Shown here one piece after another: positions 17,034 through 46,785 of a stretch of DNA of 64,000 nt. Under the pieces are notes generated by a model that was not told the origin of the DNA, made no database searches, and saw only the letters and a program-made list of their open reading frames with translations. The stretch is taken from NCBI RefSeq assembly GCF_002073975.1, contig NZ_CP020384.1, positions 1,612,001-1,676,000 of the forward strand, given 5' to 3'. Position 1 is the first letter of the stretch, and each line of letters opens with the position of its first letter. The position numbers were made by a program, and so were the translations under genes. Origin of the DNA: Rhodovulum sp. MB263 (GTDB taxonomy: Bacteria > Pseudomonadota > Alphaproteobacteria > Rhodobacterales > Rhodobacteraceae).

Positions 17034-17084
17034 ATGGCGCACCCGAGAGGATTCGAACCTCTGGCCTCTGCCTTCGGAGGGCAG
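17034..17084 (-). repeat. att copy 1: 3' portion of tRNA-Arg
   Basis: 51 bp identical to the 3' part of the intact tRNA-Arg(CCG) at 46667-46743, from the encoded CCA through the T arm to the anticodon stem-loop. The sequence then diverges completely, so this is no working tRNA but an attachment-site duplication left by integration. It marks the left end of island 1. Confidence 0.9.
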
Positions 17085-17294: not shown

Positions 17295-19787
17295 ATGATC
17301 ATGGGCATCCTTGATTGGCCGGGAAAGAGCGCTTCGATAAGCGGTTCGAGGCCACATCCCGCAGCTTATCATATGCTTGACGTGGCTGCGGTTTTTGAAC
17401 GTATGATCGAACCTTTCGGATTGAACAGTAGACTTCGCGATGCTTTGGTTCTGCTCTCGGCCCTGCATGATCTTGGCAAGATCAGCGACAGTTTTCGGTG
17501 CATGCTCGAGAAACGGGCGCCTCAAAGGTTCCGCCACTGGCAATTGACCGAGGTGCTGCTTTACGAATTCGATCCTATTCTGGCCGGGCATCTGGGCGGC
17601 ACCCCGTGGGTTCGTCAATTACTATATGCATCTGTTTCGGGGCATCATGGTCGCCCGTCCAAGCTCGATCTGGGCGGTCTTGGCTATCCAGGTCGGCGTT
17701 CCCGCGACTACCGGCTTGCTCTTGCTGCAATCGGTAGCGCAGAAGTCGATGCCGCCACGACCCTTTCGCGGCTTTGCGAGCTCTGGCCGGACTCTTCACT
17801 TGATGAAGTGACGGAAGATCACGCCGTCACATTGTCTTGGTGGTTGCCCGGAATTTGCACCGCTGCCGACTGGGTCGGGTCGAATGCAAGATGGTTCCAG
17901 CCCCAGGCGGAGATTACCAGTCTCAAGGAATACCTAGACGGAACGCGCAGAGTCGCAGTCGACGCGGTGCGAGGGGCTGGTCTGTCCGGCGCGCTGACGA
18001 GGGACGTGCGGTTGTTCGACTTCGCGTTGCGTCCGATGCAGACCGCCTGTGCCGAGGTTCCGATGATCGAGGGCCCGATGCTGGCTGTGATCGAGGATGA
18101 GACCGGCGCCGGGAAGACCGAAGCGGCACTTCTGCTGGCGCAGAGAATGCTGCTGGCGGGCAAGGGGCGGGGAATGTTTGTCGCCCTGCCGACCATGGCA
18201 ACGGCGGATGCGATGTTTCGGCGTGCGGCAGATGTCGTCGGGAAAATGTTTGGCAAGGACGCGTCGCTCACGCTGGCTCATGGTCGGGCAGGGTTGTCCG
18301 TTGCTTTCCGTGACATTGTGAATTCGACTGCCCGTAGCGAAGATGACGCCACTTGCTCGGACTGGCTTGCCGAAAGCCGACGACGGGCATTGCTGGCCGA
18401 TGTGGGGGTGGGGACCATCGACCAGGCGCTCCTTTCGGTTTTGCCCGTAAAGTTTCAGGCCCTGCGCCATTTCGGGCTGTCTTCGAAGATCCTCATCGTG
18501 GATGAGGTGCATGAGTTGGGCGAGCCGTATATCGGTGCCGAGCTGGAGGCTCTTTTGCGTATGCATCGCGCGGTCGGCGGATCTGCGATCTTGCTGACGG
18601 CCACGCTTCCAATGGCGCAAAGGGCGCGGCTTCTGTCGATCTATGGAGGCCTCTCGGACAGTCCTGCCTATCCGGCGCTGACGGTCGCGGGAGGTGTCGC
18701 TAGGACCGACCTGCCACAAGCGACGGGTCCTAAGGGAGCGGTACAAGTCGTGCGGCTGGCCAATCAAGATGATGCTGTCGCGATTTTGGCCGAACGTGCC
18801 GGTCGGGGAAGCGCCTGTGTCTGGGTGCGCAATGCGGTGGACGATGCCATTTCGGCCGTCGAGTTGCTGCGATCGAGAGGCATCGAAGCCCGCTTGATAC
18901 ATGCGCGCTTTGCGCTTTCTGACCGCAAGCGGATCGAGGCTGAGATACTGGCACGGGCTGGCAAGGCGGGCGTCGACCGCTCTGGGTTCGTTCTTGTCGG
19001 AACGCAGGTTCTCGAGGCTTCGCTCGATCTCGATTTCGACGTGATGGTATCCGATCTGGCCCCGATGGCCGCATTGGTTCAGCGGGCTGGACGGCTGTGG
19101 CGACATATGGATCTCCGGCCTCGGGCTGAGCGCCCGGTTCCAGCCGCGATCTTGCATGTCCTGTCCCCAGATCCCGGGGAAGTCACCAGCGATCGCTGGT
19201 TGCAATCCGTTCTCGACCGGGGTGCCTATGTTTATCCTGTCGCCGATCAGTGGCGCACGGCTAAGGTCTTGTTTGACGCGGGGCGGATAGAGGCGCCTTC
19301 CGGTCTGCGAACGCTCATCGAGGCGGTGCATGGGAAGGAGCCCATTCCTGCCCCCGATGTTTTGAGCGACGCCGAAACCGCAGCGGATGGGAAGGGGGCT
19401 GCAGCTCGCGGACATGCGGCGCAGAATATCGTCGAACTGGAGGCGGGCTATCGCATGGGCGGGCAGGCCAATGACGATGCCATTTATCCGACGCGCCTCG
19501 GAGAGGAGCAACGCGTTCTGGTCTTGGCCCGCTGGGAGGATGGCAGGCTTGTTCCATGGTCGGTCGACATGTTCGAAGCTTGGGCGCTGTCCGAGGTCTC
19601 GGCGCGCCGCTCTCGCCTCGACGCACTGCCTCTTCCGGATCAGTCCGCTCCGGAGATCATGGCGATCACACGGGATTGGCCGGACTGGAAGCGTGCCGAG
19701 CAGCGCTTGTGCCCCGTTGCGGAAGACGGACATATCTGCGCGGGCCTGCGATACGATGAAAGACTTGGGCTGATCTTTGGGAAATAG
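17295..19787 (+). CDS. cas3: CRISPR-associated helicase-nuclease Cas3 (type I-E)
   Basis: 830 residues. The N-terminal HD nuclease shows the HDLGK motif at residues 58-62 and GHHGRPS near residue 116. The superfamily 2 helicase follows, with EDETGAGKTEAAL (Walker A), DEVHELG (DExH box), LLTATLP and the motif VI stretch ALVQRAGRLWRH. Cas3 is recruited by Cascade bound to target DNA, which it unwinds and degrades. It is first in the locus, with a 91-bp gap before cas8e. A second ATG two codons in (MGILDWPGK) may be the true start. It appears intact. Confidence 0.96.
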   Translation: MIMGILDWPGKSASISGSRPHPAAYHMLDVAAVFERMIEPFGLNSRLRDALVLLSALHDLGKISDSFRCMLEKRAPQRFRHWQLTEVLLYEFDPILAGHLGGTPWVRQLLYASVSGHHGRPSKLDLGGLGYPGRRSRDYRLALAAIGSAEVDAATTLSRLCELWPDSSLDEVTEDHAVTLSWWLPGICTAADWVGSNARWFQPQAEITSLKEYLDGTRRVAVDAVRGAGLSGALTRDVRLFDFALRPMQTACAEVPMIEGPMLAVIEDETGAGKTEAALLLAQRMLLAGKGRGMFVALPTMATADAMFRRAADVVGKMFGKDASLTLAHGRAGLSVAFRDIVNSTARSEDDATCSDWLAESRRRALLADVGVGTIDQALLSVLPVKFQALRHFGLSSKILIVDEVHELGEPYIGAELEALLRMHRAVGGSAILLTATLPMAQRARLLSIYGGLSDSPAYPALTVAGGVARTDLPQATGPKGAVQVVRLANQDDAVAILAERAGRGSACVWVRNAVDDAISAVELLRSRGIEARLIHARFALSDRKRIEAEILARAGKAGVDRSGFVLVGTQVLEASLDLDFDVMVSDLAPMAALVQRAGRLWRHMDLRPRAERPVPAAILHVLSPDPGEVTSDRWLQSVLDRGAYVYPVADQWRTAKVLFDAGRIEAPSGLRTLIEAVHGKEPIPAPDVLSDAETAADGKGAAARGHAAQNIVELEAGYRMGGQANDDAIYPTRLGEEQRVLVLARWEDGRLVPWSVDMFEAWALSEVSARRSRLDALPLPDQSAPEIMAITRDWPDWKRAEQRLCPVAEDGHICAGLRYDERLGLIFGK

Positions 19788-19878
19788 CCACCAAGGTGGG
19801 CATTTAGCCCCATTTACAGGTGACGCGCCGAATGCTTGTCTGTTTCAGACTTCTCTGCAAACGGAGCTAATTTAAAGA

Positions 19879-21339
19879 GTGCTCAATCTGATCGAAGTCC
19901 CCTGGATTCCGGTTCTCTGCGAGGACGGCTCAAGACAGGTTGTTGCTCCCTGGCAAATAGCCGAGCCCGGCATCCTCCGCCCGGACTGGCCTCGTCCCGA
20001 TTTGAATTTGGCGTGCTATGAGCTTCTGATTGGCTTGGTTTTTCTAGCCGATCCGCCCGCGAACAACGGTGACTGGCAACGGCGCCTTGCGCCTGATCCG
20101 GATCGTTTGAAGGAAAAGCTGGCACGCTTTGCGGTGGCCTTCGATCTGTTGGGCGACGGGCCGAGGTTCTTGCAGGATCTGGCCCCTTTGGACGGGACGC
20201 CGAACCCGGTCGATATGCTGTTCATCGACAGCGCCGGGGCGAATACGGCGAAGAACAATGCCGATCTTATGGTGCATCGCGACCGCTATGGCATGCTCGA
20301 TCTGCCGCTGGCCGCCATGGCGCTTTACACTTTTCAGGCGCATGCGCCTTCGGGGGGCGCCGGCAACCGGACGTCGATGCGGGGCGGCGGCCCGTTGGTG
20401 ACTATGGTCGACCCGGGAGATGGGCTCTGGTCGCTGGTCTGGGCGAATGTGCCCTGCGGCAGGTCTTCCGATCCCGATATCCTGCCCTGGATGAAACCCA
20501 CCCGCCTGTCTGAGAAGGGCCAGAAGAGCCATCCGCCAGAGGGGCAGGTCTTTTCGGCTGAGGCCTTTTTTGGCATGCCGCGGCGGCTGCGGCTTGTCGG
20601 CTCCGGCGCGGGGATCGAGGGCGTCATCCAAAAGCCGTGGGGGGCGCACTACGCGTTGTGGAAGCATCCCTTGAGCCCATATTACCGGCTTAAGGCCGGT
20701 GCGGAATGGTTGCCCAAGCACCCGCGTCCCGGTCGGTTCGGCTATCGCAACTGGCTTGGGGTGATCGCGCGCGAGACCGGGAGCGAGAACAGTGAGTTGT
20801 CGCTGTCGCTTCGCGATTGGGGGCAGCGCGGGGGAGAGGCCTCGGTGATCGTTGCGGGCTGGGCGATGGACAACATGAAGCCGCGTGACTTTGTCCTGTC
20901 GGTTCAGCCCTTTCTCGACCTTCCCATTGCGGCCGAAGACATGCTGGTTGGATTGATCCTTGCCGCCGATGCGGCAGCTGTGGCGCTGCGCGGCGCGCTT
21001 GCAGCCGTGTTGTCAGAAGGCGACGCCCGGGAGGCTGCACGAGAGGCATTCTTTGCGGCAACCGAGGGCATGTTCCTCGATCACATTCAGGCAGTGAAAG
21101 CCGGGGGAAGCCCTTGCGCCGACTGGCTGAACGACCTGCGCAGGCAAGCCCTGAGCCAGTTCGATGCGCTCGCCATGCCCGGACTTGATCGAAGGGAAAG
21201 CGACCGGATCCGGGAGATTGTCGAGGCGCGGAAAACCTTGTCGGGCTGCTTTGCAGGCTACGGAAAGCAGGGGAAGGCTCTCTTCCAGCATCTCGGCATG
21301 GAGCCTCCGGTGAGGGGTAATACGAGGAAATCGGCATGA
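19879..21339 (+). CDS. cas8e: Cascade large subunit Cas8e (Cse1/CasA)
   Basis: 486 residues starting with GTG; the family start LNLIEVPWIPVLCEDG is diagnostic. It also shows the NPVDMLFIDSAGANTAKNNADLMVHRD loop and the C-terminal four-helix bundle. In Cascade this subunit recognises the PAM and recruits Cas3. It overlaps cas11e by 4 bp (ATGA). Confidence 0.95.
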   Translation: MLNLIEVPWIPVLCEDGSRQVVAPWQIAEPGILRPDWPRPDLNLACYELLIGLVFLADPPANNGDWQRRLAPDPDRLKEKLARFAVAFDLLGDGPRFLQDLAPLDGTPNPVDMLFIDSAGANTAKNNADLMVHRDRYGMLDLPLAAMALYTFQAHAPSGGAGNRTSMRGGGPLVTMVDPGDGLWSLVWANVPCGRSSDPDILPWMKPTRLSEKGQKSHPPEGQVFSAEAFFGMPRRLRLVGSGAGIEGVIQKPWGAHYALWKHPLSPYYRLKAGAEWLPKHPRPGRFGYRNWLGVIARETGSENSELSLSLRDWGQRGGEASVIVAGWAMDNMKPRDFVLSVQPFLDLPIAAEDMLVGLILAADAAAVALRGALAAVLSEGDAREAAREAFFAATEGMFLDHIQAVKAGGSPCADWLNDLRRQALSQFDALAMPGLDRRESDRIREIVEARKTLSGCFAGYGKQGKALFQHLGMEPPVRGNTRKSA

Positions 21340-21830
21340 GCGACGATCCGAAATCCCCAGGGGCAATCGCCCGTGGGTGGTGGCGCGCGAATCTTGGCGC
21401 CCGCGAGAGCGCCGCCGCACGGGCGCTGGCTGCGCGGCTCCGCCGGGCCGCGCCGATGGCTGCGCTGTGCGAGCCCGCCGTCATGGAACTGGCTAGGGCA
21501 TTGCATATGGGGCCTGGAAGGGCGGACAGTCTTGTGCGGCTGGTATGCCTGCTGGCAGAGGTGCGCGAAGAGGATGCCGCGACACTTGCCCGACGGCTGG
21601 GCGGGAGCGATCCGACAATGTCACCGCTCAGGTTTCAGCGCCTCATGAGGGCGGAATGCGATGAGTTGATCGCGCTCTTGCGGCGTGCTGTCGGCATGGC
21701 GGACCGTCGCTGCAACGTTGCTGCTCTGGCGCAGGATCTTCTCTATTGGGAGGAGGCCCGGCCGCGCTGGTGTTTCCATTACTTTGGGGCCGACGCCCCC
21801 AGGGACGACCTCAAGGAGAGCGTTAAATGA
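21336..21830 (+). CDS. cas11e: Cascade small subunit Cas11e (Cse2/CasB)
   Basis: 164 residues, helical and arginine-rich (WWRANLGARESAAARALAARLRRAAP, RFQRLMRAECDELIALLRRAV). Two copies form the belly of type I-E Cascade and stabilise the non-target strand. Stop and start codons overlap with both neighbours, showing a tightly coupled operon. Confidence 0.93.
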   Translation: MSDDPKSPGAIARGWWRANLGARESAAARALAARLRRAAPMAALCEPAVMELARALHMGPGRADSLVRLVCLLAEVREEDAATLARRLGGSDPTMSPLRFQRLMRAECDELIALLRRAVGMADRRCNVAALAQDLLYWEEARPRWCFHYFGADAPRDDLKESVK

Positions 21831-22891
21831 GCACGTTTCTGCAGTTTCATCTGCTGACGACCTATGGCCCTTCGAACCCGAACCGTGACGATCAGGGACG
21901 TCCCAAGCAGGCCATGGTGGGGGGCAGTCCGCGACTGCGGATGTCTTCACAATCCGTCAAGCGTGCCTTGCGCGAGAGCGCGTTCTTCGAGCTCGATCTG
22001 CAGGGGAACATGGGCATCCGAACCAAACGGCTCTTTGAAAAGCTTGTCGAGCACTTGGACACGCAAGGTGTTCCGGGTGATGTGGCATCCGAAGCAGCTG
22101 CCCAGGTGGCAGAGATATTCGGTAAGCTGGAAGCGCCGAACAAGGCTGATGGAAACCGCGTGGCGTCGACCCTTGCGTTCGTCTCGCCGGAAGAATGGCG
22201 TCTGGCCGAGGACCTAGTGGGCAAGATCGTTGCCGGTGAAGATATGCCCAAGGAGAAGGATCTGAAAAAACTGGTCCTGCGCCACGCCGATGGAGCCGTC
22301 GATATCGCGATGTTCGGGCGGATGCTGGCTGCCGATGCCGATTTCAACCGCGACGCCGCAGTCCAGGTCGCCCATGCCATAACGACCCATACGGCCCAGG
22401 CCGAGGAAGACTGGTTCTCGGCTGTGGATGACCTGAACAAAGCCGAGGATACCGGGGCCGGGCATCTTGGAGAAACGGCGTTCGGGTCGGGCGTCTATTA
22501 CCAGTATGTTTGCGTGAATGCAGATCTTCTGGTCGAGAATTTGGACGGTGATCGTGACCTTGCTGCGAAGGGCGCCGAGGCCTTGGCGCGTGCGATCGCT
22601 CAGACCTCGCCGCGTGGCAAGCAGAACAGTTTTGCCCATCATCCGCGGGCTCATTACGTTTTGGCCGAAAAGGGGACGCAGGCGCCACGGGATCTCTCCG
22701 GGGCCTTCTTCTCGCCGATCAGGGAGCAACCGATCCTTGACAACTCGGTGGCGTCGCTGGTCCGGACCCGGGACGACATCGATGCGGCCTATGGGCAGGC
22801 ATGGGACGCCGATTGCATAATGCATGTTGGGGTCGGCGGAACGCTGGACGAGATCGTCCTGTTTGCGGGTGATGCCGTGCGAGACGCCTGA
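21827..22891 (+). CDS. cas7e: Cascade backbone subunit Cas7e (Cse4/CasC)
   Basis: 354 residues, standard length. Family landmarks are FLQFHLLTTYGPSNPNRDDQGRPKQAMVGGSPRLRMSSQSVKRALRES near the start, GSGVYYQYVCVNADLL in the centre and SPRGKQNSFAHHPRAHYVL. Six copies wrap the crRNA spacer in Cascade. It overlaps cas11e by 4 bp and cas5e by 1 bp. Confidence 0.96.
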   Translation: MSTFLQFHLLTTYGPSNPNRDDQGRPKQAMVGGSPRLRMSSQSVKRALRESAFFELDLQGNMGIRTKRLFEKLVEHLDTQGVPGDVASEAAAQVAEIFGKLEAPNKADGNRVASTLAFVSPEEWRLAEDLVGKIVAGEDMPKEKDLKKLVLRHADGAVDIAMFGRMLAADADFNRDAAVQVAHAITTHTAQAEEDWFSAVDDLNKAEDTGAGHLGETAFGSGVYYQYVCVNADLLVENLDGDRDLAAKGAEALARAIAQTSPRGKQNSFAHHPRAHYVLAEKGTQAPRDLSGAFFSPIREQPILDNSVASLVRTRDDIDAAYGQAWDADCIMHVGVGGTLDEIVLFAGDAVRDA

Positions 22892-23583
22892 TGCAGCCCT
22901 ATCTGGTCTTCAGTATCACAGCGTCGCTGGGCGCTATGGGCGAGTTGGCCGGGCATGAGCGGCGCGGTTCCCTGATCTGGCCTGGCCGGTCCGCGATCCT
23001 AGGGCTTCTGGGCGCCGCGATGGGGATCGAGCGCGGCGGCGACTTCTCGAAGTTGGACGCGCTCGGTCTGGCCGTTGCCGTGTTCGATACGGGCGCGTCC
23101 CTGCGGGACTACCACACCGTGGAAACCGTGCCCTCGGCTGCGGTGAAGCATCCCAATTCCCGCCCCGAGGCGCTTGCTGCGGCGCGGGGGCGTACCAATA
23201 CGACCATTACCCTACGGGACTATCGTGCCGGGCCACTTTATGGGATCGCTGTCTGGGGGGAGGAACTCGATGCGATTGCTGCCGCCCTGAGGCGCCCCCG
23301 TTACACTCTCTATCTCGGCCGAAAGTCCTGCCCCCTCGCGGCTCCCCCCGGGGCAAAGGTCGTCGATGCCGTGTCGGCAGAGGAGGCGCTGACCCATCTG
23401 GATCTGCCGCCATGGCGCAGGCTGGATCGTCGTGGCGCACCCGTCGCCGCCAGGCTTCTTGTTTGCGGCTCGGAAGAGGGCGAGATCGTCCACGACATTC
23501 CCGGCGACCGGCGACGTCGGCATTTCACGCCCCGCCGCGTCACGGTTCGTAACGTCGAAATCGTTCCCGGAGGCGCTGGATGA
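22891..23583 (+). CDS. cas5e: Cascade subunit Cas5e (CasD)
   Basis: 230-residue RAMP protein with the start YLVFSITASLGAMGELAGHERRGSLIWPGRSAILGLLGAAMGIER and the LRDYRAGPLYGIAVWGE segment typical of Cas5e. It caps the 5' handle of the crRNA. The C-terminal RRRHFTPRRVTVRNVEI completes the fold. Its start overlaps the cas7e stop and its end overlaps the cas6e start. Confidence 0.95.
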   Translation: MQPYLVFSITASLGAMGELAGHERRGSLIWPGRSAILGLLGAAMGIERGGDFSKLDALGLAVAVFDTGASLRDYHTVETVPSAAVKHPNSRPEALAAARGRTNTTITLRDYRAGPLYGIAVWGEELDAIAAALRRPRYTLYLGRKSCPLAAPPGAKVVDAVSAEEALTHLDLPPWRRLDRRGAPVAARLLVCGSEEGEIVHDIPGDRRRRHFTPRRVTVRNVEIVPGGAG

Positions 23584-24251
23584 CCCTCTATCTCAGCCGC
23601 ATCCGCCTGTCGCGCAGCCCCTCGGCCCAAGCCCTTTCGGGGTTGTTGTCGCCCCCCGTTAGCGGCCCGCGCAGATCGGCCCATCACAAGCTTCTTTGGG
23701 CCGCCTTCGCGGACGGCCCCGACCGCCGCCGGGATTTTCTCTGGCGGGAAGATCACGACGGCGGCTTTCTCACGCTCTCGGAACGCCCGCCTCAGCCGAT
23801 GGATCTGTTTGAGCCGCATCAAGTGAAGGACTTTGCGCCCGCCCTGGCTGCCGGAGCGCTGCTCGACTTTACCTTGCGCGCCAATGCCACGCGGATGAAA
23901 CGGGGCGGAAAGCGTGTCGACGTGGTGATGGATGCGCTTTACGGACTGCCGAAAGGTACCCGCGCATCTGAGCGCATGGTGGTGGCCGGCCGTGAAGGCA
24001 AAGCTTGGCTTGAACGGCAGGGCGAGACCGCCGGGTTTAGGGTGGTCAGAGCGGAAGCTGACGACTACGCGGCCGAGGTGCTGCCGGGCTATCGCGGTCC
24101 ACGGAAGGGGCAGCCGCAATTCGGGATTGTCGATCTTTCGGGCCGGATTGAAATCGGCGATCCAGCAGCCTTCCTCGGGCAGCTTGCCCGTGGGTTCGGG
24201 CGCGCCAAGGCCTTCGGCTGCGGCCTGATGCTGATCCGGCGCGCGTCGTGA
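23580..24251 (+). CDS. cas6e: crRNA endoribonuclease Cas6e (CasE)
   Basis: 223 residues starting MTLYLSRIRLSRSPSAQAL. The motif AHHKLLWAAFADGPDRRRDFLWRED carries the histidine used to cleave the repeat hairpin. The end GRAKAFGCGLMLIRRAS is the conserved glycine-rich loop that holds the repeat RNA. It processes the transcript of the downstream array. It overlaps both neighbours. Confidence 0.95.
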   Translation: MTLYLSRIRLSRSPSAQALSGLLSPPVSGPRRSAHHKLLWAAFADGPDRRRDFLWREDHDGGFLTLSERPPQPMDLFEPHQVKDFAPALAAGALLDFTLRANATRMKRGGKRVDVVMDALYGLPKGTRASERMVVAGREGKAWLERQGETAGFRVVRAEADDYAAEVLPGYRGPRKGQPQFGIVDLSGRIEIGDPAAFLGQLARGFGRAKAFGCGLMLIRRAS

Positions 24252-25192
24252 GCGAGGGAAACCTCCCGGGCCTCGCGCCGCCGCGGCCCATTGCTCTCAA
24301 GGACAGATCCTCGCTAGTGTTCGTTGAACGCGCCCAGCTCGACGTGGCAGACGGCGCTTTTGTTGCCGTCAACGCCGACGGCACGCGGACACAGATCCCT
24401 GTTGGCGGGCTGGCGGGGATCATGCTCGAGCCGGGGGCGCGGATCTCTCACGCCGCGGTGGCGCTAGCGGCCCGCGTCGGCACCCTTATCACCTGGATCG
24501 GGGAAGGGGGCGTGCGGCTCTATTCCGCCGGGCAACCGGGAGGGGCGCGCTCGGACCGGCTGCTGTGGCAGGCATCCATCGCGCTCGACGATGCCGCAAG
24601 GCTGCGGGTGGTCCGAAAGATGTTCGCACTGCGTTTCGGAGAAGATGCACCGTCGCGGCGATCGATCGATCAGTTGCGGGGCATAGAGGGCGTGCGGGTC
24701 CGTGAATCCTATACTCTCCTGGCCAGACAATACGGTGTCGACTGGAAGCGCCGATCCTATGACCCGAAGGATTGGGAAGCAGGCGATGTGCCGAACCGTT
24801 GTCTGTCTGCGGCGACAGCCTGCCTGCACGGGCTGACCGAGGCGGCGGTGCTGGCCGCAGGTTACGCTCCTGCCATCGGGTTCCTGCATACCGGCAAGCC
24901 TCTCTCTTTTGTCTATGACATCGCCGATCTCTACAAACTGGAAACCGTTGTGCCGGAAGCTTTCCGGATCGCGGGGCAGGCGGGGAAGGGCAGACTCGAC
25001 ATGGCGCCGGACCGGGCCGTCCGCCTCGCCTGTCGTGACGCCTTTCGTCGTACCGGCCTGCTAAAGAGGATCATTCCTGCCATCGAGGAGGTTCTCTCGG
25101 CCGGAAACCTTCCTCGTCCCGAGCCGCCGCCCGAGGCCGTTTCTCCCGCTTTTCCCGATGCGCCGCCGACGGGCGATGCCGGCCACCGATAG
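24248..25192 (+). CDS. cas1: CRISPR adaptation integrase Cas1 (type I-E)
   Basis: 314 residues. The active site residues are visible: glutamate in LRGIEGVRVRESY, histidine in IGFLHTGKPLSFVYDIADLYK, and the aspartates of YDIAD. With Cas2 it inserts new spacers at the leader end. A proline-rich tail (RPEPPPEAVSPAFPDAPP) is longer than usual and probably disordered. It is followed by cas2 with a 3-bp gap. Confidence 0.96.
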   Translation: MSEGNLPGLAPPRPIALKDRSSLVFVERAQLDVADGAFVAVNADGTRTQIPVGGLAGIMLEPGARISHAAVALAARVGTLITWIGEGGVRLYSAGQPGGARSDRLLWQASIALDDAARLRVVRKMFALRFGEDAPSRRSIDQLRGIEGVRVRESYTLLARQYGVDWKRRSYDPKDWEAGDVPNRCLSAATACLHGLTEAAVLAAGYAPAIGFLHTGKPLSFVYDIADLYKLETVVPEAFRIAGQAGKGRLDMAPDRAVRLACRDAFRRTGLLKRIIPAIEEVLSAGNLPRPEPPPEAVSPAFPDAPPTGDAGHR

Positions 25193-25486
<294 letters not shown>

Positions 25487-25552
25487 GCGGAAGAGGATGG
25501 TAGGCTCTTTGACATCGTGAAAATTTTTTTAGATCAACGGTTTGCAGTAAGA
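25487..25552 (+). promoter_or_regulatory. CRISPR leader
   Basis: 66 bp between the cas2 stop and the first repeat, AT-rich near the array (GAAAATTTTTTTAGATCAAC). This is the usual place of the type I-E leader, which drives array transcription and guides spacer insertion. Its position at the cas2 end agrees with the degenerate repeat lying at the opposite end. Confidence 0.65.
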
Positions 25553-27350
25553 CTGTTCCCCGCACACGCGGGGATGAACCGTGTCCATCGTCAGCATCGG
25601 CGCCAATGATAACCTGTTCCCCGCACACGCGGGGATGAACCGGCGCAGCTTGGCGAAATCGAGCAGAAGATCGCCTGTTCCCCGCACACGCGGGGATGAA
25701 CCGACGTGACCGACAAGGTTACCGGCGCGCTGCTGCTGTTCCCCGCACACGCGGGGATGAACCGCTCTGCCAGGGGCCCCAGACAGGATCGCCCTCCTGT
25801 TCCCCGCACACGCGGGGATGAACCGTCGGTCAGCCCGCCGATCAGCCAGTTCAGGATCTGTTCCCCGCACACGCGGGGATGAACCGCAATAGATGGCCAC
25901 ATTCGCGCCCGAGGATTTCTGTTCCCCGCACACGCGGGGATGAACCGAAGTTCGTGGAGTTTCACCGGGGCGAGATTGTCTGTTCCCCGCACACGCGGGG
26001 ATGAACCGAGGCTCATGCGGCACCGCCTGCCCGGGCCTGGCTGTTCCCCGCACACGCGGGGATGAACCGGCCATTGGCAGGTTTGACCGCGTCAATCGGG
26101 CCTGTTCCCCGCACACGCGGGGATGAACCGTTCCCCCTCTACTACCTGCCCGAGGACCAGGACTGTTCCCCGCACACGCGGGGATGAACCGAATGACAGA
26201 CGACCCGCTGGACCGCGTCCGCGCTGTTCCCCGCACACGCGGGGATGAACCGATCCAGCCGGTCACCACGGGGCTGATCCTCTACTGTTCCCCGCACACG
26301 CGGGGATGAACCGACAATTTTGACGCGGCGCCTCAACCCACCAGTCTGTTCCCCGCACACGCGGGGATGAACCGGTGAACGAGCACAAGAAGGAGATCAC
26401 CGACATCTGTTCCCCGCACACGCGGGGATGAACCGCTTGAGGCCAATGGCGTGGCCGATGCGATGATCTGTTCCCCGCACACGCGGGGATGAACCGGTGA
26501 AGAAGAAGACGAAGGATCTGGCCGATACCTGTTCCCCGCACACGCGGGGATGAACCGCCGTTGCTAGCCCGCGCTGCCTTCGCCCGGGCCTGTTCCCCGC
26601 ACACGCGGGGATGAACCGCCGTAAGCCGTGGAGGCCTCGGCCGATAGGGCCTGTTCCCCGCACACGCGGGGATGAACCGGTGAAGACCAAGGATGAGATC
26701 ACGCTGAACAACTGTTCCCCGCACACGCGGGGATGAACCGACGACCTGGACGATGACACGATCCTGGCGCTGCTGTTCCCTGCACACGCGGGGATGAACC
26801 GCTGTCTGCGATGTTCGATTTCGACACGAACCTCTGTTCCCCGCACACGCGGGGATGAACCGACGAAAAGACGGTGGAGAACAGCAGGCGGCTCCTGTTC
26901 CCCGCACACGCGGGGATGAACCGGCGCCGCCGGTCGCGCCGGGATCGATGACCCGCTGTTCCCCGCACACGCGGGGATGAACCGATCCCCCGCGCGATGC
27001 TGAGGGCCGTCAGCACCTGTTCCCCGCACACGCGGGGATGAACCGTAGTTCCGGTAGCTCTTGCGGCGTCTATTTGGCTGTTCCCCGCACACGCGGGGAT
27101 GAACCGCTCTGCAATTCATCCTGAAAGCCGCCCTCGCGCTGTTCCCCGCACACGCGGGGATGAACCGCCCTGAAGCGTCACATCCCGCGTGATGTCCCAC
27201 TGTTCCCCGCACACGCGGGGATGAACCGGGACTGGGTCAGCGGTCATTATGCCTTCCTCGCTGTTCCCCGCACACGCGGGGATGAACCGCAGTCCATTTT
27301 GCCTGATGGGTGGTCTTACACCTGTTCCCCGCACACGCGGGGATGAACCG
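25553..27350 (+). CRISPR. Type I-E CRISPR array, 30 repeats, 29 spacers
   Basis: Thirty 29-bp repeats, strictly one every 61 bp with 32-bp spacers. The repeat begins CTGTTCCCCGCACACG and ends CGGGGATGAACCG, with a CCCCGC/GCGGGG hairpin and a 5' handle ending in ATGAACCG. So crRNA is read on the plus strand. Only repeat 21 (26773) differs, by one C-to-T change at its ninth base. A thirtieth spacer and a truncated repeat (CTGTTCCG at 27383) follow in phase. The uniform repeats suggest an active or recently active array. Confidence 0.98.
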
Positions 27351-27382
27351 CCTGCGACCTACACCACGGGCAACCTAGCCGG

Positions 27383-27390
27383 CTGTTCCG
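27383..27390 (+). repeat. Degenerate terminal CRISPR repeat
   Basis: CTGTTCC begins exactly 61 bp after the start of repeat 30 and then breaks down into unrelated sequence. This is the decayed trailer-end repeat and fixes the oldest end of the array. Confidence 0.8.
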
Positions 27391-27655: not shown

Positions 27656-29476
27656 TCAGCCAGATTTCAGAAGAATGCAGACGTCGTCGTCTGGCGTCAT
27701 GATCGTGGTGCGCAATTTGGCCCTGGTAACGCTTACACGAAAATTCTGGCGAGCCTGGGAAAGGTCGCCGCCTCCCTTGTTCTCGCGGACGATCCGATCC
27801 GGGTTCGCCTTGACCTCCCCGCCGACCCGCACCGGCCATCCTTCGAAGATGATCACTTCGTCGAACTGCTTTCCCTTTGCCTTGTGCATGTTCATCACAA
27901 CGATGCCCGTCTCGGGGCGCTGCGTGGTGGCGAAATGGTCCTGAACGAACGCCAGCCGTGTGATGTCAAGCGCATCAGCATAGCGACCTCGCTCTCGCCA
28001 GTTCTGTTCCAACGTCTTGCGCAGCATATTGCCCCGCTCGAGCAGACGCACGTTGCGGGCGTCGTTCGCAATCGCCCGTAGTCGGGGACACGCTCCATCA
28101 GCAAGCTTGGCGCGAATGGCGATCCAGTCCTTGTCAGGATCGCCGAGCATGACAACCTGCTGACTTGCGTAGAGTACGGCGGCGATAGGCTGGATGACGC
28201 TGTTCGCGTGTGGTGCGCGTCCCTCGGCGATCCGCTGGTTCCATTTCGCCAGCGCCCTCTCCAGTCTGATCGCATCTCCCAGATCACCCTTGCCTGGGTC
28301 AGATCCCCCACGGCCGCGAAGGTACTGGCATATCAGATGGACCAACTGGTCGAGGTCATCCGCACCACACGCTTGCTGGAGTAGTAGCGCAATGACGTCG
28401 GCTGCCAAGATCGGTCCTTCCATATCGATCGAGGCGGCATGGGCGATGGCCGGCACGTTGCCGAACGGTTCGCGCAGGATATCGGAAACAATCCGCATCA
28501 TCCGCTTGGTCGGAACGAGGATTGCCAGCGACCAATCGGGCCGTCCTGTGGCGATCAACCGGGCACGCGCCTGCAAGACCTGTGTGACTAGCGCTGCATA
28601 GGCCTGGTTCCGGTTAGACGGAAACCCGCAAAAAGCGATGCCAGCATACTCGGACTTGCTGAAGTTGGCGGTCAGCACCTCGTTGCCGAAGAGCAGAATG
28701 TCCGTGCCCTTGCTGCGGTGATTATCCGAGCCGAGCTCGGTGAAGGTCGGAGCGAACGCAACCTTGAAATGGTCAAGGCGGGCGGGATCGGCGCCGATAA
28801 ACTCGAAAATGCGTTGCTCGGGGTCAGCTAGCGCGATCAAGGAGCAACGGTCGCCAAGCGCCTTTACGACGCGCCACTGACCCGCGCTTGTGTCTTGGAA
28901 TTCATCGAAGATGATGCAGGGCCAGGTGATGGCAGTGAGCGCTCGCAGTTTGGCCGACCCCTCTAGAAGCCGCCCTACGAGATCGGCGAACAGATCGAAG
29001 CAGATTTTCCCCTCAGCAAACGCAAGGCGGTGCCGCTCAGCCTTCTCGCGCGTTCGCTTTTCGGCTAGCTCGGCATCGTCGAGCTTCTTGTCGGCGCCAT
29101 ATTCCCGGCGAATTTCAGCCAAGGCGATCGCCTCGCCAGGCGGCGTGAGGATCGAGATCCTGCGCGGCAGGCCGACCAGATAGCCGTGCGTCTTGAGCAG
29201 CCGCCAGAAGAAGCTGTGATAAGTGTCGACCTCGATCCGGCTCCGATCGGCGGGCGAGATGTCCTGTTCCTCGTCGATTGCTTCGAGGACACGGGATACT
29301 GTCGCGCGCGCGAAGCTAAGAAAGAGGACACGCTGCCCGGGCTTGAGCGTTTCGCGGGCGATCTTTGCCGCCTTCAGGATCGACACCGTTGTCTTCCCGG
29401 AGCCAGGGCCGCCGGTGACCAGCTGATGGCCGGCGACCGCGAGTACGATCTGCTGCTTCGGCGTAAGGTCGACCAT
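27656..29476 (-). CDS. gajB: UvrD-like helicase, Gabija GajB type
   Basis: 606-residue superfamily 1 helicase. Walker A is GGPGSGKTTVSILKA (residues 22-36) and Walker B IIFDEFQDTSAGQW. LADPEQRIFEFIG is the third motif, MNMHKAKGKQFDEVIIFEG motif V and VSVTRAK motif VI. It follows an OLD-family nuclease gene by 11 bp on the same strand, which is the Gabija layout: GajA cuts DNA and GajB unwinds or senses nucleotides during phage defence. It is somewhat longer than described GajB (about 500). The gene itself looks complete. Confidence 0.75.
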   Translation of the reverse strand: MVDLTPKQQIVLAVAGHQLVTGGPGSGKTTVSILKAAKIARETLKPGQRVLFLSFARATVSRVLEAIDEEQDISPADRSRIEVDTYHSFFWRLLKTHGYLVGLPRRISILTPPGEAIALAEIRREYGADKKLDDAELAEKRTREKAERHRLAFAEGKICFDLFADLVGRLLEGSAKLRALTAITWPCIIFDEFQDTSAGQWRVVKALGDRCSLIALADPEQRIFEFIGADPARLDHFKVAFAPTFTELGSDNHRSKGTDILLFGNEVLTANFSKSEYAGIAFCGFPSNRNQAYAALVTQVLQARARLIATGRPDWSLAILVPTKRMMRIVSDILREPFGNVPAIAHAASIDMEGPILAADVIALLLQQACGADDLDQLVHLICQYLRGRGGSDPGKGDLGDAIRLERALAKWNQRIAEGRAPHANSVIQPIAAVLYASQQVVMLGDPDKDWIAIRAKLADGACPRLRAIANDARNVRLLERGNMLRKTLEQNWRERGRYADALDITRLAFVQDHFATTQRPETGIVVMNMHKAKGKQFDEVIIFEGWPVRVGGEVKANPDRIVRENKGGGDLSQARQNFRVSVTRAKLRTTIMTPDDDVCILLKSG

Positions 29477-29487
29477 GATTCTTACCG

Positions 29488-31206
29488 CTATAAGCCGGAA
29501 AGGACGTCGAAATCGTCGCCGTCACCGCCAGTTTCTGGCCCCGCCGCCGGCGGAGCTGGGGGCGGATCGCACAGCTCGCGCAGCCGTGCGCAGGTCTGGC
29601 GAAACCAGAGAGGTATCTCGGCCTCTGAGCACTGGGCGAGGAAGTCGGCGATGCCCCAGTTGCCCTTCGACCACTGAAAATAGTCCATCAGCGCATCTTT
29701 CATATTCACGTCAGCGCCCGCATGCTTTGCCGCCAGATGCTGCGGCCAGGCCAGCGACTTCAAGAAGCGGTTCATTGCCTCCGAAGTGGTGTTCTTCAGG
29801 ACAAGTTCTTCAATGCCTTTTTCTGGATGCATGAACAGGTGTTCGACCTCGGCCTCGATCGCCTGCTGTGCCGCCTCTGTTTGCAGATCACACAGCGCGA
29901 ACACTCGCTTGCCCAGCCCAGCATAGAGCTTGCCCAGATCTGCAATCTGAGTCTCGGTCTTCGCGTTAACTATAGTAATGCCCAAGGCTTCGATCTGGGT
30001 GTAGGCTGTCGGATTGAGATCAGAGAGCCGGCGCGCGACGACTGGCAGAGCTGTTGCTTCGGAATCGCCTTCCGCGATAAGCACCCGGCGCGCCAGCAGC
30101 CCTTCGCAAAATTTGGTGCGGAAGTCCTGACGGTAGCGCTTGTGCTTCACGCTGTCGGGTAGGGTAATCGACGACTGGCTGAGCACGCCTTGGTCAGTCC
30201 GTGAAAGGATGACGGTCTCGTCAAGACTGAACTCTTCCAGGACATAGGGGGAATGCGAGGTGATGATCGATTGGGCCGCGAGCTTGCGTAACTCATGGAC
30301 GATCCGCTTCTGCGCATAGGGAGGAATGGCCGTTTCGACCTCCTCCATGGCGAAAATCACATTCTGCTTGTCCTCGGCGATCTGAGAGAGAAGCGCTAGG
30401 ACGAGCATATTAATGGTGCCCGTCCCCTGCCGATAGAAAGGCGCGGCATGGTCACCATTTCCGGTGGCGATAAAGGCAGTGATCACTTTGCGCAAATGCT
30501 CGCGCGTCAGGCTGGAGACGCGAAGCTGCGGCTGGGCACCCCATTCACGGGGAACATATTTCTTGAGCGAGGCATTCACGCTTTCGAGGACCCCGCTGAT
30601 GCCCATTTCAGGGGCGCCCGCCACGTCCAGGGTGGAAAGTGCTTCGAGTGTGCCCTCCCAAAGTCGAGGGCGGATCTCCTTTAGGCGGAGGATGATGTCG
30701 AGCAGGCTGCCATGCTCAAGGCTGAGCGCGCGCGACCCGGTCCTGAGCGAACGGAGAAACAGGAAGCCGCAATGCTGCTTATCGTTCTTGCGGAATGGCG
30801 TGGGCGTGTCGTCCTCGGTCAGGCTGCGGGTAAAATAGGTGATGCCGGTGAAGTCGTCCTCGTCGGGATCATATTGACCGATGAAAGTGACGCGCAGCGC
30901 CGCGTTGATGGCCGCTGCATCTATGCCGGCGGGGTTCGCTTCTGTGAACAGGGTTCCATCGACCGTGTTGAGCCACTCGATGCTGCCGCCGAAACGGGCG
31001 AGTTGTTCCTCCGACAGGTCGGTGATGGTCACCTCGATCTCGATCCGCGGTGGCGCTGCATCCGCCGGTGGGGTGCCCCCGACATTCCCGGGGGCAACAT
31101 TTCCTTGGTCGGCCGCTTCCACGGCAGGTGGGAGATAGCGTCCCTCGAAGAAATCGTGCTCGTCGACCGGCGGCCGACGGGATATGGGCACCATGCACCG
31201 GACCAT
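29488..31206 (-). CDS. gajA: OLD-family nuclease, Gabija GajA type, N-terminally truncated
   Basis: ABC-type ATPase plus TOPRIM nuclease. The second half of the ATPase is clear: RQGTGTINMLVLALLSQIAEDKQNVIFAMEEVETAIPPYAQKR (signature and Walker B), then SIITSHSPYVLEEF. The TOPRIM part is RVLIAEGDSEATALPVVARRLSDL with VFALCDLQTE. The N-terminal strand and Walker A (normally GPNNSGKS within the first 50 residues) are missing. Real similarity starts at VDEHDFFEG, and the first residues are antisense to an integrase remnant at the island boundary. Without Walker A it is probably inactive, unless complemented. Confidence 0.75.
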   Translation of the reverse strand: MVRCMVPISRRPPVDEHDFFEGRYLPPAVEAADQGNVAPGNVGGTPPADAAPPRIEIEVTITDLSEEQLARFGGSIEWLNTVDGTLFTEANPAGIDAAAINAALRVTFIGQYDPDEDDFTGITYFTRSLTEDDTPTPFRKNDKQHCGFLFLRSLRTGSRALSLEHGSLLDIILRLKEIRPRLWEGTLEALSTLDVAGAPEMGISGVLESVNASLKKYVPREWGAQPQLRVSSLTREHLRKVITAFIATGNGDHAAPFYRQGTGTINMLVLALLSQIAEDKQNVIFAMEEVETAIPPYAQKRIVHELRKLAAQSIITSHSPYVLEEFSLDETVILSRTDQGVLSQSSITLPDSVKHKRYRQDFRTKFCEGLLARRVLIAEGDSEATALPVVARRLSDLNPTAYTQIEALGITIVNAKTETQIADLGKLYAGLGKRVFALCDLQTEAAQQAIEAEVEHLFMHPEKGIEELVLKNTTSEAMNRFLKSLAWPQHLAAKHAGADVNMKDALMDYFQWSKGNWGIADFLAQCSEAEIPLWFRQTCARLRELCDPPPAPPAAGPETGGDGDDFDVLSGL

Positions 31207-31320: not shown

Positions 31321-31368
31321 TGGCGCACCCGAGAGGATTCGAACCTCTGGCCTCTGCCTTCGGAGGGC
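31321..31368 (-). repeat. att copy 2: 3' portion of tRNA-Arg
   Basis: 48 bp identical to the CCA-T-arm-anticodon part of tRNA-Arg(CCG), diverging after the anticodon stem. As at copy 1 it is preceded by GTAACTATCTGATTTTT. It separates island 1 from island 2. Confidence 0.9.
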
Positions 31369-32785: not shown

Positions 32786-32999
32786 TCGCGATCTCTTTCT
32801 CTGGCTCCTTAGTTGACTTTTGCACTACGCATTTATGCGAATTTCTGTTGCGGCAATCATGTGGCCGGAAGGTCGGGCGGAGGCATTTCCGGATGCTGCC
32901 TTGAGAAGAGTTGAGGCCTTCCCTCACGCTTCCGACTGGCGATTTCTCTACTCGTGAACGGGAATTATTTGTGTATTCAAAAACGTTTGCGCTCAACTC

Positions 33000-34119
33000 G
33001 GCTCTGTTGCACAAAGCTCGTGGGCGATTCACCTCGTGAATCCAGCGTGATAGCTGGAGGGGATGAGCAGCCCATCCACCCCGACCTACAAGATCAAGAA
33101 CTGGCGGTCCTATAACGAAGCGCTCAAGCGCCGGGGCTCGCTGACGATCTGGTTCGATCCCGAGATGACGTGGGAGGCCAGGCCGACCGGCAAGCGCGGC
33201 CGGCAGCCCACCTACAGTGACGCGGCCATCCAGACCTGCCTGACGATGAAAGTCCTGTTTGGCATGGTCGACATTGGAGCGCCATTGGTCCGAGCGAAAA
33301 TGTCGACCCGGCAGACGACAGGCTTCGTCGAGAGCCTTCTGCAGTTGAGCGGGCTGGACTGGTCGGTGCCGGATTTCAGCACGCTGTCACGCCGCCAGAA
33401 GACCCTGAACGTGAACATTCCGTATCGGGGATCGGAGGGACCGCTGCACCTGCTGATCGACAATGAGGCACTGACCGCCATTGGTCCGAGGACAATGCCG
33501 AATGGCATCAAGGTCGAGGGTGAAGGCGAGTGGAATGCGCGCAAGCATGGCGGCGCCAAACGCCGCATCTGGCGCAAGGTTCACCTCGGGATCGATGAGA
33601 AAACACTGGAAATCCGGGCCGTCGAGTTCACCAGTAGCGATATTGGCGATGCCCCCATGCTGCGGAACTGCTCGACCAGATCCCGCTCGATCAGGAGATC
33701 GACAGTGTCACCGCAGATGGTGCCTACGACACGCGCAAGTGTCACGACACCATTGCCGACCGGGGCGCCCACGCCGTCATTCCTCCGCGAAAAAATGCCA
33801 AACCCTGGAAGCCTGGCAGCGCAGGCGCGATTGCCCGCAACGAGGCGCTGCGCGCATCGAAACGCCTGGGCCGGAAGATCTGGCGGAAGTGGAGTGGCTA
33901 CCATCGCAGAAGTCGGGCCGAAACCAAGATGCACTGCATGAAGCTGTTGGGCCAACGCCTCATGGCGCGGGAGCCTGACCGGCAGGTTGCCGAGCTTCAG
34001 GTTCGTGTCGCCGTCATGAACGGCTTCACCGCGCTCGGCATACCCGTGACCGAGGCCGTGGCATAAGTGTGTCCGGGAAAGGGGTAGCTCCGTCGTCAGC
34101 GGCTTTGTGCAACAGAGCC
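33000..34119 (+). mobile_element. IS5-family insertion sequence (copy A)
   Basis: Bounded by inverted repeats GGCTCTGTTGCACAAAGC at 33000 and GGCTTTGTGCAACAGAGCC ending at 34119. It carries one transposase, which is frameshifted. The right end is inserted inside a second copy of the same IS in opposite orientation (34120-34366), while the left flank is unrelated DNA. So a deletion accompanied or followed insertion. Confidence 0.85.
33063..34066 (+). pseudogene. IS5-family transposase, frameshifted
   Basis: Starts MSSPSTPTYKIKNWRSYNEALKRRGSLTIWFDPEMTWEARPTGKRGRQPTYSD. The catalytic core is present, but the frame breaks after GDAPML near 33660, where one C appears lost. The other frame continues ELLDQIPLDQEI, YDTRKCHDTIADRGAHAVIPPRKNAKPW and YHRRSRAETKMHCMKLLG, to the end VTEAVA at 34066. 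Two extra segments of about 12 residues (after GM near residue 68 and after LLID near residue 135) interrupt the usual sequence and hold short palindromic DNA. Probably inactive. Confidence 0.8.
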
Positions 34120-34366
34120 TCGTCAGGCAGGTCTGGATGGCCGCGTCACTGTAGGTGGGCTGCCGGCCGCGCTTGCCGGTCGGCCTGGCCTCCCACGTCA
34201 TCTCGGGATCGAACCAGATCGTCAGCGAGCTCCGGCGCTTGAGCGCTTCGTTATAGGACCGCCAGTTCTTGATCTTGTAGGTCGGGGTGGATGGTCTGCT
34301 CATCCCCTCCAGCTATCACGCTGGATTCACAAGGTGAATCGCCCACGAGCTTTGTGCAACAGAGCC
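34120..34366 (-). mobile_element. Truncated second IS5 copy (copy B)
   Basis: Minus-strand left end of a sister IS. The terminal repeat is GGCTCTGTTGCACAAAGC at 34366-34349, followed by the transposase start MSRPSTPTYKIKNWRSYNEAL and on to AIQTCLT, where copy A cuts in. The remainder of copy B is nowhere in the window. Confidence 0.8.
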
Positions 34367-34420
34367 GTGACTGCCACCCAAGGTGGATTATACCACGTTG
34401 GGGCTAGACAATTGCGCCTC

Positions 34421-35278
34421 TTAATTTTCTAACGATTTACGATCAAGCACAACGCGCGCCCGGAAAAGATCAGGGTGCGCGGCCCTATACAGTTCTGAAA
34501 ATTTCCCATCAGAGGTCTGCTCGTGAATCATTTCTACCACGAACCGAATCAAAGAATCGAAATCCATCTCCTTTAGATCAAATGCGTTCTCGGCATTGCT
34601 GCTCACCACAAGAACCAGGGGGCAGTCGGTATCGGTGCAGACGAGAAGAGAAGAGCGGATCTGTTGCCTTTGCTCTTCTCGTACAAATATGTATCCGAAT
34701 GTTGGCTCCCTCGTGTCATTCACATAGTAAAACTGGCTTTGGGGGTTATCTAATAGCTTTACCGCCTCGTATTTCTCACTCCGATAATAATCAGGATCTG
34801 CCTCCCGATTGGTAATGCTGCGGTTGCGAGACTGAAGGGCGCTATCGGTATAGGCGACCATAGTTGGGAACTCTTTATCGGAAAACACACAGATCTCAAA
34901 ATGCGTACCACTTGCCCAGTCTGGAATTCGAGATCTTAAAAAATTTAGGATTGAACGAATCATTTCAACTCTCCTTCCGATATCGGTCTGATTTGGATTT
35001 GATGAAACTCTCGCTTTTTCGGCGGCAAGTTCTTTTAATGAGGAAATTGGGAGCCTATCACCCTCAAGAAACCTTCGACGACTAATATCCAAGAAGACCT
35101 TTCCGGCGGTTGAAATGAAAAGTAATGTTATGAGGGAGGTTGCTCCGGAGACCCAACTCGTATTGCCCTCAGCAACTTTAATGATGAGGTAAGCCTCAGT
35201 TGCTGTGAGAACCACAACAACACTGATGAATACAATAAAGATAGAATTCACTTTCCAGCGATTAAGCATTGATTGCAC
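34421..35278 (-). CDS. Two-TM membrane protein with GAF-like cytoplasmic domain
   Basis: 285 residues. Two N-terminal membrane helices (IFIVFISVVVVLTATEAYLII and ATSLITLLFISTAGKVFL) are followed by a linker and, from about residue 105, a GAF-like domain. Its pattern runs FEICVFSDKEFPTMVAYTD, then YEAVKLLDNPQSQFYYVND, and IRSSLLVCTDTDCPLVLVVSSNAENAFDLKEMDFDSLIRFVVEMI. GAF folds often bind nucleotides. Its start overlaps the end of the kinase-like gene, so the two are translationally coupled. AT-rich and foreign to the chromosome. The layout suggests a membrane sensor or effector controlled by a small molecule made or consumed by the kinase; that is inference. Confidence 0.65.
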   Translation of the reverse strand: MQSMLNRWKVNSIFIVFISVVVVLTATEAYLIIKVAEGNTSWVSGATSLITLLFISTAGKVFLDISRRRFLEGDRLPISSLKELAAEKARVSSNPNQTDIGRRVEMIRSILNFLRSRIPDWASGTHFEICVFSDKEFPTMVAYTDSALQSRNRSITNREADPDYYRSEKYEAVKLLDNPQSQFYYVNDTREPTFGYIFVREEQRQQIRSSLLVCTDTDCPLVLVVSSNAENAFDLKEMDFDSLIRFVVEMIHEQTSDGKFSELYRAAHPDLFRARVVLDRKSLEN

Positions 35279-35828
35279 CCCTCATGAATGCCCTGCACTC
35301 ATCCAGACTTAAACGACTTGTATCCAGATCAATGAATGAAAGTGGGGCGGATTGCCGCCATTCCCTATATAGATCCAGCTGAAGATCTATCGTGTCCAAT
35401 ATGAGTTTTCCCTCGCCGCGCTTGCAAAGCCTTTCCCTGAGTGCATCACGAGGCGCGGAGAAAAAGAATACCCGATCAGGTTGCGGAAACTTTCTCTTAA
35501 CCCTACTATACAGCTTGAAAAGCTCTAGAATTTGCTCGTCGTTCAGAAGACCTATCAGGTGGAAGAGGCGGCAAAAAACATGAAAATCCTCATCGACGCT
35601 ACGGTCAATCACAACGAGGGAAGTACCCTTGATAGCACATAGGCTTTCCAAGCGCGAAACCATTATGCCCTTTTGAATTTGAAAGGAATAGGACTGAAAA
35701 GTCGTGGTGTTTGGCATCGGTGATGAATTTGCATACCGCTCGCGTATTATTGAGAATCCAACATCATGTAAGACGTTTGCAGCGGTGCTTTTGCCACTGC
35801 CAGTTGGCCCCGAGAGCTGCACGATCAT
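35262..35828 (-). CDS. Deoxynucleoside-kinase-like P-loop protein
   Basis: About 188 residues from MIVQLSGPTGSGKST (Walker A at residues 6-14). Further deoxynucleoside-kinase-like features are QSYSFQIQKGIMVSRLESL, VVIDRSVDEDFHVFCRLFHLIGLL (DRS motif), PDRVFFFSAPRDALRERLCKRGEGKLI (lid-like arginines) and LQLDLYREWR. Such enzymes phosphorylate deoxynucleosides. The substrate here is unknown, and the sequence is divergent. The frame is open further upstream, but family similarity starts at this ATG. It overlaps the membrane-protein gene by 17 bp in one operon. Confidence 0.65.
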   Translation of the reverse strand: MIVQLSGPTGSGKSTAANVLHDVGFSIIRERYANSSPMPNTTTFQSYSFQIQKGIMVSRLESLCAIKGTSLVVIDRSVDEDFHVFCRLFHLIGLLNDEQILELFKLYSRVKRKFPQPDRVFFFSAPRDALRERLCKRGEGKLILDTIDLQLDLYREWRQSAPLSFIDLDTSRLSLDECRAFMRGAINA

Positions 35829-36237
35829 GATTCCATGGAACCCTTCAACTGTTTCATGCCTGCGACCGACTTTTAATATTGGCCTGCACTCATTCCGAGT
35901 GCCTTGTGAAGGCAACGCACATTAGCTTGAAAAAATTCGAGCGGATCCCATCAGGCTGCATCACCACGGCTCTTGCGTCAAAGTTTTTAGTGGCTTCTCT
36001 GCAACCTGTGTCCGCTCTCCATTTCTTGTCGTAAAGCGTACAACACATTTCAGCTTCGCTCAAAGAGCCTTGGCCGGTCAAACAGCTGCTCTGATCAATC
36101 GAGAGTTCGATCGGAGAAAAGGCGCCAGTGCCGGGAGGGGGCGGTGCAGGAGGGTCCGGTTCTGGGAAGTTCGGCCGATGGCTGGGAACGGTCTTGAACG
36201 GCATCTCTCCGCCCTTATGTCCCACACAGCCGCCCGG
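35829..36237. other. Region upstream of the kinase operon, no clear gene
   Basis: About 410 bp. The AT-rich part next to 35828 should hold the promoter of the kinase operon. Beyond about 36100 the DNA turns GC-rich like the phage remnant. The open frames here are proline/arginine-rich and give no recognisable domain. Confidence 0.4.
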
Positions 36238-37508: not shown

Positions 37509-37523
37509 ATGATTGGGAGCAAA

Positions 37524-45924: not shown

Positions 45925-46785
<861 letters not shown>

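Follow-up and report, generated by a model that had tools for sequence, protein, structure and literature searches.

A candidate pair of overlapping genes for a deoxynucleoside-kinase-family protein and an orphan membrane protein between tRNA-Arg repeats in Rhodovulum sp. MB263

The overlapping genes and their products

We analyzed a 64,000-nucleotide stretch of the Rhodovulum sp. MB263 genome (contig NZ_CP020384.1, positions 1,612,001 to 1,676,000 of the forward strand; hereafter the window, in whose coordinates all positions are given) and within it a pair of minus-strand open reading frames (ORFs). The first, 188 amino acids long (35828-35262), encodes a kinase; the second, 285 amino acids long (35278-34421), encodes a putative membrane protein. 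An earlier note on this DNA had proposed an overlapping two-gene arrangement, and both ORFs were confirmed at these positions and on this strand, with an overlap of 8 or 17 nucleotides (nt) according to the start codon. The most likely start of the membrane protein gene is the ATG at 35269 (282 amino acids), which lies in an 8-nt overlap with the end of the kinase gene (35262..35269, minus strand) and has an AGGGG upstream at a spacing of 8 nt. The alternative start, a GTG at 35278 (285 amino acids), creates a 17-nt overlap. For the kinase, a longer version beginning at a TTG at 35915 is possible.

One thousand dinucleotide shuffles of positions 34368-36468 (2.1 kb) served as a null for ORF length. 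An ORF of 285 codons was reached in none of them, the largest having 259 codons. ORFs of at least 188 codons arose in 49 of the 1000; the 188-amino-acid ORF was accepted because of its homology to the Pfam dNK family, rather than because of its length. The GC content of the two genes is 44.9% and 47.1%, and their GC content at third codon positions (GC3) is 45.8% and 49.2%, as against 71.6-88.6% in the nearby genes for GajA, GajB, a methyltransferase, and a lysozyme; the description of the pair as AT-rich is thus borne out. The pair consists of real overlapping genes of foreign composition.

Judged by its profile match and its motifs, the upstream gene product (35262..35828, minus strand) is a P-loop kinase of the deoxynucleoside kinase (dNK) family. 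The match to Pfam dNK (PF01712) has an expect value (E) of 2.2e-15 and a score of 57.4 bits, compared to a curated cut-off of 27, and covers residues 6-141. The protein carries the P-loop GPTGSGKST at residue 7, Glu30 (in RERY, from residue 29), a Gln in FQIQK (49-53), DRSVDED at 75, and RERLCKRGEG at 131. We take Glu30 to be the catalytic Glu, the Gln to contact the substrate, and DRSVDED to represent the family's DRS/ED motif. The nearest solved structures by sequence are YorR of prophage SPbeta (2axp, E 0.002) and the deoxynucleoside kinase 8puu (E 0.0027). In the phmmer alignment to 8puu (residues 1-156), the P-loop, Glu30, the helix Gln and Arg, and the DRS..ED motif correspond by eye. 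These matches agree with the soluble dNK-type kinase that had been proposed.

The downstream gene product (34421..35278, minus strand) is an orphan with a hydrophobic N-terminus, followed by a soluble domain of about 210 amino acids. The proposal of two N-terminal membrane helices holds in part: in a hydropathy analysis, the 19-residue mean has one strong maximum of 2.42 and a weaker second one of 1.54, both within approximately residues 4-66. The protein had no significant match in Pfam, NCBIfam, PADLOC, PHROGs, or the PDB sequences (best profile E between 0.1 and 0.3).

The soluble domain had also been described as GAF-like. The look of the sequence and the order of strands in a low-confidence model, which are the whole basis of that assignment, make it plausible by eye. 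A Pfam profile scan of the protein gave no match to GAF (PF13185) or its relatives, and a search of the genus with GAF_2 at E 1e-6 found three places in the MB263 genome, none of them at the membrane protein gene. Structure prediction, which had been suggested as a check, returned no confident fold. Two AlphaFold models had mean predicted local distance difference test scores (pLDDT) of 35.5 and 38.9, both of low confidence; the model of the soluble part (38.9) proceeds from a helix and two strands to a series of further strands, with helices late in the chain. In a Foldseek search, the best hit had an E of 1.4, and the GAF-containing PDE6C, at rank 8 with an E of 3.0 and a template modeling score of 0.17, constitutes no evidence for a GAF fold. 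We used hhalign to compare the protein to GAF stretches from the genus, aligned in three sets, of 16, 12, and all 30 rows, with 50 shuffles per profile. The scores of 11.2-13.7 fell within the range of the shuffles (top shuffles 14.9-18.7). As positive controls, four known GAF stretches were compared to another group, with mixed results: the one from locus L064 was clearly found, the one from L074 only marginally, and the other two were missed. The GAF-like domain is thus unconfirmed by profile, fold, and hhalign tests, though these tests are insensitive.

Relatives of the two proteins

The kinase is the sole dNK-family match in its own genome (4.16 Mb). The dNK profile matched 33 of 367 genomes of the class at E 1e-3, and nine of the 367, MB263 included, exceeded the cut-off; several of the matches in the class resemble thymidylate kinases by eye. 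(The genome sets of the separate searches overlap, and counts from different searches are not additive.) The kinase gene is outside the usual gene set of the class. A plain housekeeping role is unlikely, given that the genome holds a single dNK match and that so few genomes of the class have one above the cut-off.

At E 1e-5, relatives of the kinase were present in four of 398 genomes of the phylum, including MB263; in the other three, folK lies upstream, and in two of these panB and panC lie downstream (by eye). Scans of viral contigs and genome contigs, which detect close relatives only, recovered a relative of neither protein. Distant kinases were found on three plasmids and in one phage, LP65 (two records, 30% identity).

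Counting its own genome, the membrane protein was matched in 1 of 198 genomes of the family, 3 of 385 of the class, 1 of 398 of the phylum, and 1 of 16 of the genus; the 15 congeners gave no match at E 0.01. The two other matches in the class (E 0.004 and 0.009; 28-29% identity over 70-96 residues) were counted as chance, and by eye the ORFs behind them encode an acetyltransferase and an efflux membrane-fusion protein. In a further class, that of genome G746, none of 194 genomes matched; this search had no positive control and is hence uninformative. Searches of plasmid and phage collections with tblastn found no relative of the membrane protein, and a distant blastn search with positions 34368-36225 against E. 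coli genomes gave no match.

We also searched for the membrane protein in 32 loci that had matched the kinase or the dNK profile (L006-L008 and L019-L047; the MB263 locus was excluded, and some places in the class were without a locus). Two tblastn matches resulted, with E of 0.11 and 0.12 over about 40 residues, and were taken as chance. In the ten loci that were read (L019-L027 and L031), most of the matches resemble, by eye, housekeeping kinases such as thymidylate kinases. A housekeeping setting was encountered only around distant relatives of the kinase, and no partner was found there. At the best dNK match in the class (genome G297, L019 1486-2651), an ORF of 175 amino acids with two hydrophobic segments begins about 26 nt after the dNK gene. 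Read by eye from an inner ATG, its product looks small and secreted, with a signal peptide; tblastn finds no link between this ORF and the membrane protein.

Segments bounded by copies of the tRNA-Arg 3' end

A 48-bp sequence identical to the 3' end of tRNA-Arg(ccg) is present in three exact copies in the window, all in one orientation. The first copy (17035..17082, plus strand) is the left boundary of a segment with CRISPR-Cas and Gabija genes. The second, att-like copy (31321..31368, plus strand) is the left boundary of the segment that contains the pair. The third is part of an intact tRNA-Arg(ccg) gene (46667..46743, minus strand); the 3'-terminal 48 nt of this gene (46667-46714) close the pair's segment on the right. 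The three copies therefore mark two tandem segments, A (31.3-46.7 kb, 15.3 kb long) and B (17.0-31.3 kb). A 32-nt core of the repeat occurs exactly three times in the MB263 genome; it was found in four of 16 genomes of the genus, with one exact copy in each of the three other genomes and none in the remaining 12. The 17 nt beside the first and second repeats are identical.

Segment B contains cas3, cse1, cas5, cas1, a CRISPR array, and Gabija. The type I-E CRISPR-Cas locus (17295..27389, plus strand) has Cas3 at 17295, Cse1 at 19879, Cas5 at 22891, and Cas1 at 24248 among the ORFs scanned, and an array from 25552 with 61-nt spacing. Gabija (27656..31206, minus strand) is represented by GajB (27656-29476) and GajA (29488-31206), with PADLOC E of 5.9e-224 and 7.9e-234. 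No integrase was recognized among the eight ORFs scanned in this segment. The pair thus has Gabija and CRISPR-Cas in the next tRNA-bounded segment. The defense neighborhood that the earlier note had reported is real: it comprises Cas3, Cse1, Cas5, Cas1, the array, GajA and GajB, and a HipA in segment A.

The pair's own segment contains, in addition to HipA, IS5-like insertion sequence (IS) copies, a D12 methyltransferase, a phage lysozyme, a distal tail gene, and part of a serine recombinase. The pair could be a metabolic or neutral cargo of such a decaying mosaic, the kinase being a phage or plasmid salvage enzyme and the membrane protein a loosely related or unrelated passenger, with no role in defense. 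We consider this somewhat unlikely; it is the main rival to a role in phage defense. The best kinase relatives found are phage and prophage enzymes (LP65, SPbeta YorR) and housekeeping dNKs next to folK, and the lysozyme, tail gene, IS copies, and gene fragments in the segment fit such an origin. However, the overlap of the kinase stop with the start of its partner points to selection for coupling, and the two genes are similar in composition, with full-length frames amid IS copies and fragments.

Outside the IS copies, the measured stretches between 31.4 and 36.2 kb have a GC content of 45-57%; that of positions 36226-36468 is 72%. The IS5-like copies (32999..34367) have inverted ends, with 248-nt arms that are 99% complementary, and DDE_Tnp_1_5 was matched in two of their ORFs. 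They end 53 nt from the membrane protein gene and separate the pair from an orphan ORF of 249 amino acids (32036-32785, plus strand, 46% GC), which belongs to the same low-GC block, is convergent with the membrane protein gene across the IS copies, and has no credible relative (best PHROG E 0.084). On the other side of the pair lies a D12-class adenine methyltransferase gene (36468-37169, minus strand), apparently shortened, as the match begins at position 42 of the 253 in the profile; it is followed by an HNH-like remnant, recognized by eye (36238-36471). An ORF of 299 amino acids (37509-38408, plus strand) has the look of an aerolysin-type pore-forming protein by eye, without a match in Pfam, PADLOC, or PHROGs.

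These neighbors bear on a further alternative, in which a membrane sensor and a kinase take part in ordinary signaling or regulation (e.g., nucleoside sensing) that serves the mobile element and not host defense. The architecture of the pair is what speaks for it. Against it, no regulator, transporter, or response partner was recognized alongside; the scanned neighbors are the IS copies, the methyltransferase, and ORFs without a family. We regard this alternative as very unlikely.

The boundaries of the segments carry possible traces of recombinases. Left of the first repeat, an ORF (16459-16950, plus strand) ends like the C-terminus of a tyrosine recombinase by eye, without a Pfam match. Left of the second repeat, a plus-strand ORF end at 31245 is 61% identical to the tail of this ORF over 33 columns; it overlaps the start of gajA on the opposite strand. 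At the right end of segment A, positions 46015-46785 (plus strand) encode the C-terminal part of a large serine recombinase, with a zinc ribbon, in a frame that enters the tRNA-Arg gene.

In the congeneric genome G939, ARAGORN predicts two genes for tRNA-Arg(ccg), separated by 5.3 kb (L016 4546-4622 and 9889-9969). The exact 32-nt pattern is carried by the second, which has a different 5' half and resembles a partial copy; this suggests another element at the same site. These observations suggest that elements have inserted at the tRNA-Arg gene in at least two species of the genus. The left flank of the window (2.0-11.9 kb) is matched in congeners, by L015 1-9681 and L016 12-2787. The distance from this flank to tRNA-Arg is 156 bp in genome G934 and within 1.8 kb in G939. 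Relative to the flank, the tRNA-Arg gene of the congeners has the opposite orientation; the arrangement in the window therefore seems to include a rearrangement in addition to insertions.

A possible role in phage defense

We tentatively propose, by analogy to known systems, that the pair is a phage-defense module of the guard type, with a membrane effector under the control of a nucleotide enzyme. The two genes would form a horizontally acquired operon, transcribed as one unit and carried as cargo by a mobile segment that integrated at tRNA-Arg(ccg) and adjoins the second such segment with CRISPR-Cas and Gabija. The kinase would phosphorylate a (deoxy)nucleoside or a nucleoside monophosphate, and the membrane protein would be silenced via its soluble domain, either by the product of this reaction or by binding of the kinase. 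An infecting phage would disturb the nucleoside pool, whereupon control would be lost; the released membrane protein might then oligomerize through its N-terminal helices and damage the inner membrane. The dNK match and motifs, the overlap of the genes, the lack of another dNK in the genome, the low GC3, the tRNA repeats, the proximity of Gabija and CRISPR-Cas, and the precedents of Panoptes, Hailong, and Clover support the guard model.

We compared the pair to these and other systems by their descriptions in excerpts of the cited papers. In Panoptes (mCpol and 2TM-beta), the product of an enzyme restrains an effector with N-terminal transmembrane helices, and the genes are sited by another defense system (PMC12657230). 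Like the pair, with its putative membrane protein, Panoptes combines a soluble nucleotide enzyme with a membrane-anchored protein near defense loci; it differs in having, by description, a Cas10-like cyclase and a Cap15-like beta-barrel, where the pair has a dNK-family kinase and a domain of about 210 amino acids. Hailong (HalA and HalB) uses an ion channel that is blocked by a protein carrying nucleotide polymers (PMC13275509); it is set apart, again by description, by the poly-dA adducts of HalB, whereas the pair has a kinase. No cyclase or nucleotidyltransferase of the Panoptes, Hailong, or CBASS type was encountered in the pair, whose enzyme belongs to the dNK family. From ordinary members of PF01712, with which the first gene shares family and motifs, the pair differs in its mobile context and in that the kinase gene overlaps one for an orphan membrane protein.

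Kongming (KomABC) and Clover (CloAB) share the idea that deoxynucleotides act as signals during infection. In Kongming, deoxynucleoside monophosphate (dNMP) kinases of the phage help to build an activating deoxyinosine triphosphate (dITP) signal (PMC12948488), and Clover senses rises in deoxythymidine triphosphate (PMC12265719). Their effectors deplete NAD+ or hydrolyze deoxyguanosine triphosphate, and the excerpts name neither a membrane partner nor a dNK encoded in the operon. Kongming also provides the model for control of the opposite sign, in which the kinase would make an activating nucleotide signal from material of the infection and the membrane protein would open on binding it. A dNK-type enzyme would be expected to respond to nucleosides or nucleotides freed by the breakdown of DNA, and the enzyme-first gene order is neutral toward this possibility. 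However, no ligand-binding domain was identifiable in the membrane protein with Pfam, the structural models, or hhalign, and we consider activation by a kinase product quite improbable.

DefensePredictor lists a dNMP kinase and a 5-hydroxymethyldeoxyuridine DNA kinase among the domains of validated defense systems (PMC13092281, figure legend); among its systems, compared by description in the excerpt, no pair of a dNK and a membrane protein was found. Among papers found in searches of the open-licence PubMed Central literature, no title or abstract opening described the composition of dNK plus membrane protein. The same literature yielded neither a deoxynucleoside kinase together with a GAF domain nor the combination of nucleoside kinase, transmembrane, defense island, and anti-phage; in passages of PMC7159879, the phrase "GAF domain" occurs in the reference list only.

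Several observations weigh against the guard model. The second hydrophobic segment of the membrane protein is weak, and its soluble domain is without a family assignment. In PADLOC, the membrane protein is without a match, and the kinase hits VakA only weakly (E 0.0017). No sigma-70-like promoter was found in positions 34300-36500, where shuffled sequences average 1.7. Passenger genes are to be expected in segment A, given its phage-structural genes, IS copies, and shortened methyltransferase. Finally, the genome searches of the family, class, phylum, and genus found no second instance of the pair, so the two genes do not stand as a demonstrated conserved unit. The pair is a single-instance candidate, well placed, and not established as a system.

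A bolder claim would be that the pair is an undescribed phage-defense module whose dNK-family nucleoside kinase monitors the deoxynucleoside pool and has a new type of protein as the membrane effector under its control. We hold this to be fairly unlikely. If it were true, phosphorylation by a salvage-type kinase would join the ways in which bacteria read infection via the nucleotide pool, and the membrane protein would found a new family of membrane effectors. Even as cargo, the pair would illustrate how accessory genes accumulate at a single tRNA-Arg gene, here next to CRISPR-Cas and Gabija.
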